NCBI GenBank assembly: GCA_007753675.1
Contig: CP036432.1
Coordinates: 7,566,233 to 7,630,232 of the forward strand
DNA: 64,000 nt
Direction: 5' to 3'
From: Stieleria magnilauensis
GTDB lineage: Bacteria; Planctomycetota; Planctomycetia; Pirellulales; Pirellulaceae
Below the pieces are notes generated by a model. The model saw only the letters and a list, made by a program, of their open reading frames with translations. It was not told the origin of the DNA and did not search any database. Below are positions 10,302-25,258 of this stretch, piece by piece; the stretch's first letter is position 1; each line of letters starts with the position of its first letter. The position numbers and the translations under genes were made by a program.

Positions 10302-11429
10302 TCAGCCTTTCTTCTTCAGCGTCATCATGTATTCCACGATGTCGATCAAGCCCTGCCGGCCGGTGATGTGGTGCAGGTTCTCCGGCATGATGGACTTGTC
10401 GCTTTTCTTGATCGTCACGACGTCTTCGGATGGAATCTTGCGATTGATCGCATCGGCCGTTCGGATCACCACTTCATCATCGGTCTGCGAGATCTTTAGT
10501 CCCGTGATCACTTGGCCTTCTTCGGTCAACACGCTGAAGTTTTCGTAGTTGTGGCTGATGCCCGCGCTGGGCGCCAACACGGCCGTTAACATCGCTTCAC
10601 GCGAAAGCTTGGTTCCGATCTCCGACAGATTCGGGCCGACGTCCTTGCCGTAGTCGTTGACGATGTGACAGTTGGCACAAGTCCCTGCGCCGCGAAACAG
10701 TTTCTCGCCTGCGGCGACATCCCCGGTCATCTTGGCCAGTTCGTCGATCGGGGGTAAGGGCTGGGAATCTTTTTGGGCCGGTTGCGGCAACACGTTCGCG
10801 GCGGCTTTGCGAATGCCGCCGTCTTTGCTGCGCGCCAACAACGCGCCGGCAATCAGGACGGTGTCGCCGACCAGCGTTTTCTCGGTCGCTAAATCGATCA
10901 GCCGTTTTTCACCGTCCTTGGTTCGCGCCAACCCGGCGACGGCCGCGCGGCGCTGATCGTAGGGACGCTCGGCATCGGTCGCGACCTCGGACAGGAAATG
11001 ATTGGCGCGTCCGTTACCGAGTAACCCGAGCGTTTCGATCACGCCGCGGGCCTGGTCGGGCGAGGCAAGCAAGTTGCGGATTTCTCGTCGTCCGGCATCA
11101 AGTTCCAACAACAACTCCGCCGATTCCACCGCCGCCGATCGATCATCACCGACCAACGCCACCGTCAGTTGCGATTCAATGCCATCGGGTTTGAAACGTT
11201 TGACCAGTTTCATGAATTCCGGCGTGCCCTCGCTGCGCCGGATCTGCCGCATGACGGCCTCCGCCACCGCGGGGTCGGAGCGGTAGTCATAGCCATCGAT
11301 CCGCTCGATCGCCCGCACGACGATGGCGTCGCGACGAGCCTGCGCGGCATTGTCGGCAGCAGGCAAGCTTGATGGCGCGGTGAGGAGATACAGGAAGCCG
11401 ACGGTCAGGATCAACGCGTGAAGTTTCAT
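10302..11429 (-). CDS. secreted HEAT-repeat c-type cytochrome (PVC-type haem domain)
   Basis: 375 residues: signal peptide (MKLHALILTVGFLYLLTAPSSLPA), HEAT-like helical repeats up to about residue 230, then a PVC-type cytochrome c domain. The haem site is CANCH near residue 252 and GPNLSEIG follows; MPENLHHITG carries the distal Met. This domain normally forms the C-terminus of large planctomycete dehydrogenase-like proteins. Here it has its own signal peptide and lies 52 bp downstream of such a protein that lacks haem (11482-13791), so the two probably act together as donor and acceptor. Confidence 0.88.
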   Translation of the reverse strand: MKLHALILTVGFLYLLTAPSSLPAADNAAQARRDAIVVRAIERIDGYDYRSDPAVAEAVMRQIRRSEGTPEFMKLVKRFKPDGIESQLTVALVGDDRSAAVESAELLLELDAGRREIRNLLASPDQARGVIETLGLLGNGRANHFLSEVATDAERPYDQRRAAVAGLARTKDGEKRLIDLATEKTLVGDTVLIAGALLARSKDGGIRKAAANVLPQPAQKDSQPLPPIDELAKMTGDVAAGEKLFRGAGTCANCHIVNDYGKDVGPNLSEIGTKLSREAMLTAVLAPSAGISHNYENFSVLTEEGQVITGLKISQTDDEVVIRTADAINRKIPSEDVVTIKKSDKSIMPENLHHITGRQGLIDIVEYMMTLKKKG

Positions 11430-11481: not shown

Positions 11482-13791
11482 TCAGGGAAGCAGCCGTTTC
11501 AACGCGGCGCTGCGGACGTCCGAATCATGGAATTCGAGACTGCGAAAGTATCGATCCGTTTCACGCAGCGGTCGGTTCGGATCGGCGATCAATGAGACCA
11601 TGGCGTCTGCCGCTTTAGGGGCCCGGATTCTCCAGACCACGTCTCGGCCGGCCGCCGTGTCCCAGCGGCCGTTGACGGCATCCAGGTAGGCTTCGAAACA
11701 GGCTTCGGGGCGGACGTCGCTTCCGATCCCGAGGGCTTCCAGATACCAGCGGTCCTGGCCGTCGTAGGCCGTTGCCAGCTTGGCCCACAGCGTCGGCATG
11801 GTGTCGCTGGTGTCGTAGCGGAGCGCGACAGCCAACTCGCGTCGCACCGCCGCCGATTCATCGTCGGCGGCGTCGGCCAGCCACCGAGACGGTTGGGCGG
11901 TCAGTTGCTTGGCCAAACGGATCGCCGTGATGCGAATGTCTGGATTGGAATCGGCCAAAGCCTTGGTCACATAGTGCTCTCCGCGTCCGTCGATCTTACC
12001 GAGCAACCACAGCGCGCGGGCTCGCAGTCGCGGATTGGAATCAGCGTAGAGTTCCAGCAATTCGGGTTCGGCATCGCGGCCCATCGCGTGCAGCGTTCTC
12101 CAGGCTCGCGAGCGGACGGCCAAGTTCGGGTTTCGCAGCGCTTCGACAGCGCCGTCGGCGGTGGTGAAGTCGAACGTCGGAATCGTGTAAGCCGACCCGG
12201 GAGGTGCCAGTCGAAACAGCCGTCCCCGGTCCGAGTCGCCTTGATTGTGACCTCCCACGCCGGGATCGTACCAATCGGTCACGAACAGCGAACCGTCCGG
12301 TGCGGTGCAGACGTCGGCCGGTCGGAACCAGCGGTCGGTGGTTCCCGTCATCAATGGCTCGATCGTCGCGGTGTATCCGGCGCCATCGGGCTTGGCGGGG
12401 TAAGCGCGGACCATGTTGGGGCCGGGGTCGCAGTGGATGATCTGGTCCCAAAAACGTTGCGGCAACAACCGGCCTTCGTAAAAGCAGATGCCGCTGGGCG
12501 AGCCGGCACCGGTTTGCAGCATGTTGGGGACGACACCGGGATCGTTTAGGTGCCAGTGACGGTGCATGATTTCGTCTTCTTGGTTGATCCGTTCGTCGCG
12601 CCAACCGCCGCCGGTGATCTCATCGCGATAACCGTAGTTGCCGTGTTCCATCACAAAGTTGATTCGCGTGCCGCGGTTGCCGTCATCGTCGTTGTCACTT
12701 TGCCAGAGTGTGCCGAACGAATCGACGGTGGTTTCCCAGTTGTTGCGAAAGTTGTGCGCCAGGACTTCGAAATTGGAACCGTCCAGATCGCATCGAAACG
12801 GCATGCCGCCGTACAACGGTGCTCCGTTGTCGATGACGGGGCGGCCGTGAATGTCGATGACCGTTTCGCCATCGGCGTCTTTGACTTGCTCGCCGGTGTT
12901 GCCGAAGTTCCAGTAGAGTTTTCCGTCGGGGCCGAACAGGAACGAATGGCCGGAGTGGTCGTGTTGGGGGTTGCCGACTCCGGTGAACATCGCGGTCTTG
13001 CTGTCCGGCACGTCATCGCCATCGGTATCGACGAAACGCCAGACGTTGGGCGAGGCGGTGACGATGACATCGGTACCGGTCGCGTTTTCGAGCACGCAGA
13101 TGCCCATCGCTGAATCGATGTCGCGGCCTTGGTAAAACGTCTTGGCATCGTCCAAGACTCCATCGCCGTCGGTGTCCTCCAGGATCATGATCCGATCGCC
13201 TTCGGGGCGTGCGCCTTGATTGCGTCGATAATTCATCACGTCACAGACCCAAACGCGTCCGCGCGAATCGATATCCAGGTTGGTCAGGCTGCGGAGCAGC
13301 GGTTCGCTGGCCGCCAGGGTGGCTTCCAGACCTTCGGCGATCGTGATTCCCTTGATCGCGTTGGCAGGGTCGCGCTGGTCACCGTCGCTGGAGTTGTCCG
13401 GGGCGCTGCCCAGGGACGCCGGTGCGGCGCCGGCGTAGACGGCCAATCGGACGCTCGTGCTGGTGCCGCCGTTTTGACGCGTCCCCCCGGTGTCCAGGGC
13501 TCCGGTCGCCGTCAGCCGCGTGTAGCCCTCGGGGACCTTGAAGTGGATGACGCTGTTGGCGTGGGTCCCGATGGCGTGTTTTCCGATCACCTGGCCGTCG
13601 ACCGACCAGGGGGCTCCACTGCAGTTGAGATCCTTGCCAACGCTGCCCCAACCGGTCGTCGCGGACTGCCATCCCAAGTCGACCAGTGACAGCGATCCGG
13701 CAGGACCGTGCAGGGTCGGGTCCACCCAGTCGACCCAATCGCATGCGAATCCATCTCCGCCGTCATCGACGATCAGAAACAAGTCCGACAC
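11482..13791 (-). CDS. NPCBM + membrane-bound dehydrogenase-like propeller + HEAT repeats (probably 3' part of a frameshifted gene)
   Basis: 769 residues if read from the only near start, GTG at 13791. That start falls inside the NPCBM (galactose-binding-like) domain: FLIVDDGGDGFACDWVDWVD and IGTHANSVIHFKVPEGY are its core. The same frame is open upstream to the A10 run at 13888-13897 and encodes the missing first strands (SAKPIFLSGTLTSQTKRHRV), with no start codon or signal peptide. Next comes the PVC dehydrogenase propeller (TLAASEPLLRSLTNL, several DTDGDGV calcium-like loops, ADVCTAPDGSLFVTDWYDP), then HEAT repeats to the end. No CxxCH is present. It is best read as the continuation of the ThuA gene across the homopolymer. 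Predicted periplasmic sugar-oxidising or -binding protein. Confidence 0.85.
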   Translation of the reverse strand: MSDLFLIVDDGGDGFACDWVDWVDPTLHGPAGSLSLVDLGWQSATTGWGSVGKDLNCSGAPWSVDGQVIGKHAIGTHANSVIHFKVPEGYTRLTATGALDTGGTRQNGGTSTSVRLAVYAGAAPASLGSAPDNSSDGDQRDPANAIKGITIAEGLEATLAASEPLLRSLTNLDIDSRGRVWVCDVMNYRRNQGARPEGDRIMILEDTDGDGVLDDAKTFYQGRDIDSAMGICVLENATGTDVIVTASPNVWRFVDTDGDDVPDSKTAMFTGVGNPQHDHSGHSFLFGPDGKLYWNFGNTGEQVKDADGETVIDIHGRPVIDNGAPLYGGMPFRCDLDGSNFEVLAHNFRNNWETTVDSFGTLWQSDNDDDGNRGTRINFVMEHGNYGYRDEITGGGWRDERINQEDEIMHRHWHLNDPGVVPNMLQTGAGSPSGICFYEGRLLPQRFWDQIIHCDPGPNMVRAYPAKPDGAGYTATIEPLMTGTTDRWFRPADVCTAPDGSLFVTDWYDPGVGGHNQGDSDRGRLFRLAPPGSAYTIPTFDFTTADGAVEALRNPNLAVRSRAWRTLHAMGRDAEPELLELYADSNPRLRARALWLLGKIDGRGEHYVTKALADSNPDIRITAIRLAKQLTAQPSRWLADAADDESAAVRRELAVALRYDTSDTMPTLWAKLATAYDGQDRWYLEALGIGSDVRPEACFEAYLDAVNGRWDTAAGRDVVWRIRAPKAADAMVSLIADPNRPLRETDRYFRSLEFHDSDVRSAALKRLLP

Positions 13792-13841
13792 GCCAGCGAT
13801 CGAAGTATCGATTTCGACGCGATGGCGTTTCGTTTGGCTGG

Positions 13842-14858
13842 TCAGCGTGCCGGAAAGGAAGATCGGTTTGGCGGATTCAGTCGACTCTTTTTTTTTTGCG
13901 CCGTCAATTGAAACCGCTTGGCGGTTTCTTCTTCATCGAAATCATCGGGGCGTTCGTAATCTTGATCTTCCAGCAGACGTTTGATTCCGATCGGTTCTTC
14001 GCCCAACGAGGAGCCCTCCGGACCGATGGTTTCACCCGCGGTCCAGAGGATCGCGTTGGTCACCAAACGTCGCACGTCATCGTTGCCCCAGTTCCAATGG
14101 TAGTGTCCGCCGGTGAAGCCGAAGGACCGGCCGCCGTCGGGACGATCGTAAGCCCAGGCGACCGTTTGGGGTTCGCCCGCGGCAACACTCTTGCGAACGT
14201 GGGGATTGCCATGGTGTGGCCCGTCAGGCCGCTTCATGGTGTGATCGGGGGCGACCGCGGAAAGAATTGGCGTGACTTTGCCGAGTTCCGTAAACCGCAG
14301 GTGGAAGTACCACTCGTCGTCGGTTGCGAAGGGCTCGACGCCGCGTGTGATCGGATGGTCGGGCAGCGACTTGAATTCCGCCACCCAATGCGGATTGACG
14401 CTGTAGTTGATTTCGAAGTGGCCGCCGAGAAGCTCTTCCCAGTCTTTGCCGGGTTCACCGGGAACCATCTCGACCGCGTAGTGCAAGCACACCAACCCCG
14501 TTCCTTCGCCGAGACGTTGACGCAGTTGGTCGCGATGGTTCATCGCGACATGCCGCCCGCCGCCGTCGCAGTAAATGACGATCGTGTCGGCGGCGGCGAT
14601 TTGGTCATCCGACGGCCAGCCGCGAACGAGTGTGACCCGAGCGGTGTCGCTGCTCTGTTGGATCGCGTCTTGCAGGATGCGAAGTCCCGCAAAGTGTTCA
14701 TGAGCGCCGAATCGGTGCGACGGCGGACCGGCGACCATCAGGATCTGTTTGATCTCCGAGTCCGCGGCTGTTACCGGGGCGGCGGTCAAACCGAGGGAAA
14801 AGCAAACCGTCACGGATGCCAGGACGGTAACGAGCCAAGATCGATGTCGACGCATCAT
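13842..14858 (-). CDS. secreted ThuA domain protein (5' part of a probable ThuA-NPCBM-dehydrogenase fusion)
   Basis: About 338 residues from ATG at 14858 (14855 equally possible); earlier in-frame ATG at 14921 precedes the signal peptide by 21 unlikely residues. Signal: RRHRSWLVTVLASVTVCFSLGLTAAP. The ThuA fold (class I glutamine-amidotransferase-like, found with trehalose and other sugar-use genes) shows in KQILMVAGPPSHRFGAHEHF, IVIYCDGGGRH, LVCLHYAVEM, EWYFHLRF, VAWAYDRPDGGRSFGFTGGHYHWNWG. The last ~16 residues after the A10 run have no ThuA match. If one base is added at the run, the protein continues into the 769-residue frame to give a ~1,130-residue secreted protein. Confidence 0.88.
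   Translation of the reverse strand: MMRRHRSWLVTVLASVTVCFSLGLTAAPVTAADSEIKQILMVAGPPSHRFGAHEHFAGLRILQDAIQQSSDTARVTLVRGWPSDDQIAAADTIVIYCDGGGRHVAMNHRDQLRQRLGEGTGLVCLHYAVEMVPGEPGKDWEELLGGHFEINYSVNPHWVAEFKSLPDHPITRGVEPFATDDEWYFHLRFTELGKVTPILSAVAPDHTMKRPDGPHHGNPHVRKSVAAGEPQTVAWAYDRPDGGRSFGFTGGHYHWNWGNDDVRRLVTNAILWTAGETIGPEGSSLGEEPIGIKRLLEDQDYERPDDFDEEETAKRFQLTAQKKKSRLNPPNRSSFPAR
13888..13897 (-). other. A10 homopolymer at a gene junction, likely slippage or indel site
   Basis: Ten consecutive T on the plus strand (A10 in the mRNA). With ten A the ThuA frame passes through and stops 45 bases later after an unlikely tail (SRLNPPNRSSFPAR). With eleven A the ThuA frame runs directly into the NPCBM frame (KKKESTESAKPIFLSG). 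Runs of nine or more A are known sites for RNA polymerase slippage and for sequencing or replication indels. Confidence 0.7.
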
Positions 14859-14988: not shown

Positions 14989-15100
14989 GTACCCAGTACC
15001 CAGTACCCAGTACCCAGTACCCAGTACCCAGTACCCAGTACCCAGTACCCAGTACCCAGTACCCAGTACCCAGTACCCAGTACCCAGTACCCAGTACCCA
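14989..15100 (+). repeat. heptamer tandem array, 16 x GTACCCA
   Basis: Sixteen uninterrupted perfect copies of GTACCCA. Because 7 is not a multiple of 3, all frames are open and give 7-residue peptide repeats (on the minus strand WVLGTGY); these open frames are not taken as genes. Confidence 0.97.
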
Positions 15101-15103
15101 GTA

Positions 15104-15152
15104 CCCCAAACCCCAAACCCCAAACCCCAAACCCCAAACCCCAAACCCCAAA
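15104..15152 (+). repeat. heptamer tandem array, 7 x CCCCAAA
   Basis: Seven perfect copies of CCCCAAA, separated from the GTACCCA array by three bases. The switch from one heptamer to another at the same period suggests the second array evolved from, or was copied next to, the first. Confidence 0.97.
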
Positions 15153-15237
15153 AACATTCCCCGTTGGGGGGGCTGAACCCGTCTGGTTTTCTAGTCTGTT
15201 GACGTTCTGTTTCGAATCCATGCGGGAGCGATCAAAC

Positions 15238-15708
15238 ATGGCAGGTGTGAACCGGTTTACAGAACTCTTGTTTTGGCAGAAGTCGCGAACGTGGTCGAAA
15301 GAGATTTTTCAACGAACCCGCCGCGATCCCTTTGCCTTAGACCGTCGCTTGGTCGTCCAAATCAATGACTCCTCCGAGTCCGTGATGGCAAACATTGCCG
15401 AGGGGTTTGGCCGAGGAACTCAAGGTGAATTCGTCCAGTTTCTAGGCTACTCCCTCGGCGGCCTGAATGAGACTCAGTCGCACTTGGTGGCCGCATTCGA
15501 TCGGGACTATCTGGAACGAGAGGACTACAGGACGCTGTTCGCCCAAGGCACCGAAATTCGCAAGATGATGGTCGCCTTCATGCGCTCGATGGTGAAGACA
15601 GGCTCCGGTGTCAAACACATCCGAAAATACAAATCGTGGTCGGATGAAGTCTGGGAGATGTATGAGAAGTTCGCCGGAAAACAACGCCCAGAGCTGTATC
15701 GGTCGTGA
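15238..15708 (+). CDS. four-helix-bundle protein (23S rRNA IVS-encoded protein family)
   Basis: 156 residues. The ATG at 15238 is preferred since GGGAG lies 8 bases upstream; an earlier ATG at 15199 lacks a site. The hallmark INDSSESVMANIAEGFGRGTQGEFVQFL block and the following GGLNETQSHL identify the family first found in intervening sequences of 23S rRNA genes and related to the Avd accessory protein of diversity-generating retroelements. No reverse transcriptase or rRNA gene is nearby. It sits alone immediately after the heptamer arrays, a typical place for this mobile-looking family. Function unknown; nucleic-acid binding is suspected from the basic surface. Confidence 0.88.
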   Translation: MAGVNRFTELLFWQKSRTWSKEIFQRTRRDPFALDRRLVVQINDSSESVMANIAEGFGRGTQGEFVQFLGYSLGGLNETQSHLVAAFDRDYLEREDYRTLFAQGTEIRKMMVAFMRSMVKTGSGVKHIRKYKSWSDEVWEMYEKFAGKQRPELYRS

Positions 15709-25026: not shown

Positions 25027-25258
25027 GGGGGACCTGAGATTGGAAATCGGGGGCGGAAATCCGAGTCAAAACCACACCTGACCGTCCGCCGGTGAGTACG
25101 GTGGGCTGAATCAGAACGACGAAGACGAACGCTCTGGAGCGATTAGTATAACCGGCCGCTGAAAAAAAACGTCACCCGAACGGGCTTGGTGATTCCGATT
25201 TCCCGGCCCGTGGATCGGAAATGCAGCCCGATCGGTCGACGTGATGGGCGGCTACCGA

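Follow-up and report, generated by a model that had tools for sequence, protein, structure and literature searches.

The described systems closest to the locus considered here are genes in which RNA polymerase stutters on a run of A. In Thermus thermophilus dnaX, as outlined in PMC1088944 and PMC5009743, transcriptional slippage on A9 yields the products at a ratio of about 1:1. Other dnaX genes consist of two open reading frames, nine of them with 10 A, and their long product requires a shift, as summarised in PMC3711429. Slippage genes of insertion sequences (IS elements) have also been described (PMC1088944, PMC3711429), and the efficiencies quoted for cassettes in E. coli are 63% with 11 A, 40% with 9 A, and 10% with 7 A (PMC1088944, PMC5009743, PMC3711429). 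No description of slippage or programmed frameshifting of the present case in Planctomycetes or Pirellulaceae was found in the open-access literature searched; in PMC3711429, its supplementary clusters aside, the Planctomycetes appear a single time, as an entry in a table that counts genomes.

The window, by which we mean the whole 64,000-nucleotide stretch of Stieleria magnilauensis contig CP036432.1 that was analysed, contains a ThuA-domain gene followed by a frame encoding an NPCBM domain, a dehydrogenase-like propeller, and HEAT repeats (Table 1). An earlier note on this DNA had placed the handover between the two at a run of ten A, and this was confirmed: the minus-strand junction reads GCG CAA AAA AAA AAG AGT CGA CTG, with exactly ten A, and the downstream frame is -1 relative to ThuA. 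A homopolymer of about nine or more A or T thus lies at the frame junction itself. The short ThuA tail does end at 13842, as had been claimed, but 15 codons after the run rather than 16 residues. Additionally, the downstream frame is open upstream through the run, back to a stop at 13935, and from 13887 it runs for 801 codons to its own stop at 11482. Its Pfam matches are to NPCBM (1.7e-18), DUF7133 (2e-54), and HEAT, and it matches TIGR02604 at 1e-87; the ThuA, NPCBM, and TIGR02604 model scores exceed the curated cut-offs. When compared with the sequences of solved structures, matches were confined to the NPCBM and HEAT regions of the alignment. The ThuA protein appears by eye to begin with a signal-like segment. 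On translation, one added A at the run gives a single ThuA-NPCBM-dehydrogenase-HEAT protein of 1125 aa, close to the roughly 1,130 residues given earlier.

Table 1. Coordinates of the features at the window's junction and of comparable junctions in other genes
Feature	Coordinates	Strand	Basis
ThuA-domain protein, 338 aa	13842..14858	-	ORF (ATG 14858); PF06283 E 2.5e-20
A10 run, candidate transcriptional slippage site	13888..13897 (T10 on +)	-	direct sequence read
TGA, 3 codons past the run, third frame (A9 mRNA)	13877..13879	-	sequence read
NPCBM - DUF7133/TIGR02604 dehydrogenase-like propeller - HEAT frame	11482..13887	-	ORF and domain profiles
c-type cytochrome-like protein, separate neighbouring gene	10302..11429	-	TIGR02603 7.4e-30, CxxCH
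PF12904/kelch A9 split gene, window's genome	L237:1501 (G000:C1:1878980)		
A9-GTAR junction loci	L276, L278, L279, L281, L282, L284, L285, L286, L294, L295, L296		

Other features of the window were also noted. No A or T run is present at the 11482/11429 boundary, which looks like an ordinary gene boundary, and an A8 at 25162-25169 was discarded as a candidate because it falls in no open reading frame of at least 100 aa. At 14989-15152, approximately 130-290 bases upstream of the ThuA start, lie perfect arrays of the heptamers GTACCCA (16.9 copies) and ACCCCAA (7.1 copies); at the loci of relatives, five GTACCCA copies are present in L038 and none or one in L011-L014. Further upstream of ThuA, on the other strand, lies a small open reading frame (15199-15708, plus strand), the product of which we take to resemble a four-helix-bundle protein of the 23S intervening type.

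In comparison to T. thermophilus dnaX, as that gene is presented in PMC1088944 and PMC5009743, the window likewise has A9-A10 in coding sequence, nearby stops in other frames, and prospective products with a common N-terminus. The protein families are unrelated, and the roles of slippage are reversed: the long dnaX product is in frame and slippage gives the short one, whereas the window would depend on slippage for its long product. The two-ORF dnaX genes, going by the account in PMC3711429, share with the window the recoding for a longer product, the A10, and the -1 arrangement, but belong to replication, whereas the window's gene encodes a metabolic enzyme that is predicted to be secreted. 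Similarly, in the slippage genes of IS elements, so far as PMC1088944 and PMC3711429 cover them, a poly-A run joins two open reading frames; those are mobile transposase genes, in contrast to a chromosomal enzyme gene under apparent purifying selection. The window's genome also has its own dnaX (L122:273-2246), in which an in-frame A10 is followed, in the other frames, by stops at distances of 1 and 3 codons. This is one of only five A10 runs on both strands of the 10.77 Mb genome, which has no longer A run. Among 30 chosen genomes of the family, dnaX carries A9 or A10 in 25 and lacks the run in five, and all 25 runs are followed, no more than 4 codons on, by a stop in one or both of the other frames.

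If the two frames of the window were instead expressed as separate proteins, the downstream part would begin internally at GTG or TTG and stay in the cytoplasm. The 769-residue downstream frame was correctly described as lacking an ATG in the linker, and its first start-like codon is the GTG at 13791. It does not, however, open in the middle of the NPCBM domain, as had been thought, since the best Pfam NPCBM stretch starts near 13689, past this GTG, as an internal start would allow. Begun at 13791, the frame would lack the segment between there and the run, which is common to relatives. Across the 15 split loci with short linkers described below, GTG or TTG occurs between the run and the dehydrogenase anchor in 10, but ATG before the anchor occurs in none, five have no start codon of any kind, and an SD-like motif precedes such a codon in only one (against a background of 766 of 7200 random positions). 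Internal starts would also leave the A9/A10 unexplained, and we consider two separate proteins extremely improbable.

The junction was then compared across the family. A match at E of at most 1e-60 is present in 218 of 241 family genomes, counting matches to the dehydrogenase part alone. From 205 collected loci, 23 with identical linkers, 26 without ThuA, and 12 without a dehydrogenase anchor were removed, and the 144 distinct ThuA..dehydrogenase loci that remain are a sample from among the matches listed. The first 20 regions were chosen mostly for a broken-looking match and the share of split loci is therefore inflated, while the presence of A9/A10 in all short-linker split loci is unaffected by this choice. 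As to homologues of the full fusion, for which the earlier note had proposed a search, ThuA and dehydrogenase lie in one frame in 122 of the 144 loci. The frames differ in 20. In 15 of these the linker is at most 341 nt, and the junction of every one holds A9 (3 loci) or A10 (12 loci); no run is present in the remaining five (L166, L175, L188, L194, and L202), whose linkers measure 365-550 nt. One further locus, L152, is interrupted by an in-frame stop between the two parts and was classed as 'none'. Separate genes for the two parts, named earlier, if each has its own signal peptide, as the finding that would speak against a fusion, were seen only outside this family, in loci with longer linkers. 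Of the short-linker splits, 14 of 15 would be joined by one added A (or the loss of two), and L045 requires the loss of one (or the gain of two). The ThuA stop falls within 3 codons of the run in 11 split loci, and 11-15 codons past it in four (the window, L049, L050, and L054), a distance that counts against programmed slippage.

The run is also kept in the linkers of 13 in-frame loci, such that A9/A10 is present in 28 of the 144 loci and 116 have no run of 9. Counts in the 122 in-frame linkers are 46 (A5), 13 (A6), 2 (A7), 1 (A8), 5 (A9), and 8 (A10); from a log-linear fit of the A3-A7 counts, 0.25 runs of at least nine would be expected, and 13 were observed. Pooled, the linkers (32 kb) hold eight A9 and 20 A10; the coding sequence of the dehydrogenase has a single run of at least nine (an A10) over 269 kb, and that of ThuA has two (both A9) over 97 kb. 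Stops are likewise concentrated after the runs. A stop in at least one other frame lies within 3 codons in 24 of the 28 run loci versus 20.4% of controls (10,854 positions from 106 loci without a run), and both other frames stop within 5 codons in 11 of 28 versus 2.1%. Of the 13 in-frame run loci, 12 would meet a stop no more than 5 codons on if one A were added; by clade, this holds for 6 of 7 (p = 4e-4, a P-value that, like the others, does not correct fully for relatedness among loci). With the same incomplete correction for relatedness, the run and the frame relation recur among homologues beyond chance.

It could nevertheless be that slippage is real and the run merely tolerated, a Lys-rich linker having drifted to poly-A so that later frameshifts were rescued and the short product has no role. 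Slippage rescue of frameshifts has been proposed for insect endosymbionts. On a tree of the dehydrogenase part (143 of the 144 loci, built by a quick method without mixture), run and no-run states change at least 15 times, and the split label changes 11 times, 10 of them forced by well-supported branches; both this lability and the lack of a run in most sampled relatives are as expected of a tolerated run. In 108 of the 143 treed loci, both parts are in one frame without a run of 9, and therefore the family does not need slippage in general. In contrast, the large excess of A9-A10 over A7-A8, the proximity of slipped-frame stops even where the fusion is in frame, and the similar junctions in other genes described below are not expected of drift, and we regard mere tolerance as unlikely. 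The downstream part does not appear to be decaying either. For the dehydrogenase part, comparing the window with each of its two nearest in-frame relatives gives dN/dS of 0.067 and 0.147; the value is 0.085 between those two relatives, and 0.081 (L042/L043) and 0.062 (L047/L050) for pairs in which both members are split. These values, which are low in the ThuA part as well, indicate that the dehydrogenase part is under purifying selection in the split lineages.

A single open frame runs through the same A10 in the nearest relatives, L011 (96% identical) and L012 (95%). Where L012 reads CAA AAA AAA AAG TCG ACT, the window reads CAA AAA AAA AAG AGT CGA CT, with two extra bases after the run; possible histories are a two-base insertion beside A10, or a one-codon insertion followed by the loss of an A from A11. 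The window's sequence could be in error, the true genome having A11 and a single open frame. In favour of this, the frame is intact in both nearest relatives, a sequence of A11 and then GAG would differ from L012 cleanly by one inserted codon, and homopolymer errors are possible in single-contig genomes such as the window's. However, the public protein P0001, for which the longest contig is 6963 bases, matches the window's ThuA in length and in its split tail while differing from it at three residues, two of which belong to the tail. Moreover, the dnaX A10 of the same assembly is in frame, and there are 14 further split loci, eight of them in multi-contig genomes and one in a MAG. The sequencing indel suggested earlier is therefore quite improbable. 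Comparable ends are found in other ThuA-length proteins: from the best 120 of 6999 relatives, the ends of 111 (of at most 385 aa) were inspected, and 11 have KKK within 16 residues of the end. A looser KKK-like motif is found in 12, including P0059, which has KKT in an ordinary tail.

Phase variation, in which an A gained or lost in the DNA run would switch the fusion on or off, had also been suggested, and in-frame and out-of-frame states do occur within one genus. Run length, though, is 9 or 10 in all 28 run loci. L001 and L012 share the A10, and their frames differ through changes in its flanks; the same holds for L044 and L045, members of one genus with an identical A10 and four different bases just before it. 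In the pairs compared, tract length did not vary so as to set the frame, as it does among close relatives at a contingency locus. The near-constant run length and the frame changes in the flanks argue against phase variation, which we consider very improbable.

Alternatively, the fusion could arise by -1 ribosomal frameshifting rather than by slippage of RNA polymerase. The heptamer A_AAA_AAG is a good ribosomal shift site; it lies within the window's A10 in phase with the ThuA frame, and 14 of the 15 splits need a -1 shift. Rather stable downstream folds are also present in the split loci L037 (z -3.0) and L049 (z -2.4), where z compares the fold of 60 nt with 60 shuffles. Yet the heptamer needs only seven bases, whereas runs of 9-10 A are found at the split loci; the shift required at L045 is the opposite one; an SD-like motif precedes the run in 2 of 28 loci; and the mean fold z is -0.74 for split and -0.19 for in-frame loci. 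In the window, z is 0.91 and there is no SD-like motif, such that neither stimulator was found. Because the runs are 9-10 long, SD-like or stem-loop stimulators are inconsistent, and one locus runs in the opposite direction, slippage is favoured over ribosomal frameshifting, which appears improbable.

Overall, of the explanations offered earlier, programmed slippage is the best supported, given the recurrence of A9/A10 at the junction, the mostly fixed direction of the shift, and the nearby stops. We therefore propose, with a probability of approximately 0.7, that one transcription unit gives two products through RNA polymerase slippage on A10. Unslipped A10 mRNA would encode the secreted ThuA-domain protein, ending 15 codons past the run; mRNA with one extra A (A11, or equally A8) would be read into the NPCBM, propeller, and HEAT regions to give the 1125-aa fusion. 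In close relatives that keep A10, the fusion is in frame, and therefore slippage would there make the short ThuA product instead, as described for T. thermophilus dnaX (PMC1088944, PMC5009743). Judging from dnaX and the E. coli reporters, the ratio of the products would probably be in the tens of per cent. Slippage at the A10, expression of both products, and their secretion are predictions from sequence. The enzyme may have a role in periplasmic sugar oxidation, for which the neighbouring TIGR02603 cytochrome could be the electron acceptor or a possible partner.

Similar A9/A10 junctions are seen at three other domain boundaries in the family. The first lies upstream of ThuA, where 12 of the 144 loci carry A9/A10, not counting L157, whose listed run is the ThuA/dehydrogenase one. 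The frame is split there in L056, L057, L079, and L188, the last of which lies outside the family and needs the opposite shift, and is open across the run in L071, L109, L110, L113, L114, L175, L194, and L205. L289, from a separate search, is also split upstream of ThuA, and its upstream domain is a 3-keto-disaccharide hydrolase (PF06439, Pfam); in PMC9007349, activity on 3-keto-sugars, 3-ketotrehalose among them, is described or proposed for such DUF1080 proteins. Within one genus, G167, G168, and G169 all carry A10 upstream of ThuA, with two in frame and one split. The second boundary was found with the pattern A9-GTAR: of 30 loci fetched, 11 have an upstream open reading frame ending at the run and a -1 downstream frame. 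The upstream part is a phosphonate-binding-type periplasmic protein (PF12974) in the three tested by Pfam, and PQQ_2 was the match of the single downstream part examined. For 9 of the 11, stops follow within 3 codons in both other frames, although the search pattern itself supplies one of the two. The remaining 19 comprise three ThuA/dehydrogenase junctions already counted, L289, and 15 without such a pair. At the third boundary, the window's genome, G211, and G209 each have an A9 GTAG at which a collagen-binding-domain protein (PF12904) is split from a kelch propeller lying in the -1 frame. A search of 98 genomes with the kelch part gave nine matches: these three splits, two fused in frame without a run (G155 and G147), and four without a run.

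We give even odds to a broader proposal: that in the Pirellulaceae a 'slip or stop' cassette, made up of A9-A10 and nearby other-frame stops, serves generally for the optional joining of secreted domains. The product that requires slippage could then flip within a genus while the run stays, so that the two-product output, rather than the frame, would be what is conserved. Besides dnaX, its proposed members are ThuA/NPCBM-dehydrogenase, 3-keto-disaccharide hydrolase/ThuA, periplasmic binding protein/PQQ propeller, and collagen-binding-domain/kelch. In-frame and split members of one genus constitute a natural experiment, in which the same A10 has reversed roles and the same two proteins are predicted. 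Should the main reading hold, annotations that divide these enzymes into a ThuA protein plus a truncated dehydrogenase would be wrong, and a single bacterial family would have metabolic genes, none of them mobile, that depend on the stuttering of RNA polymerase to produce modular proteins.
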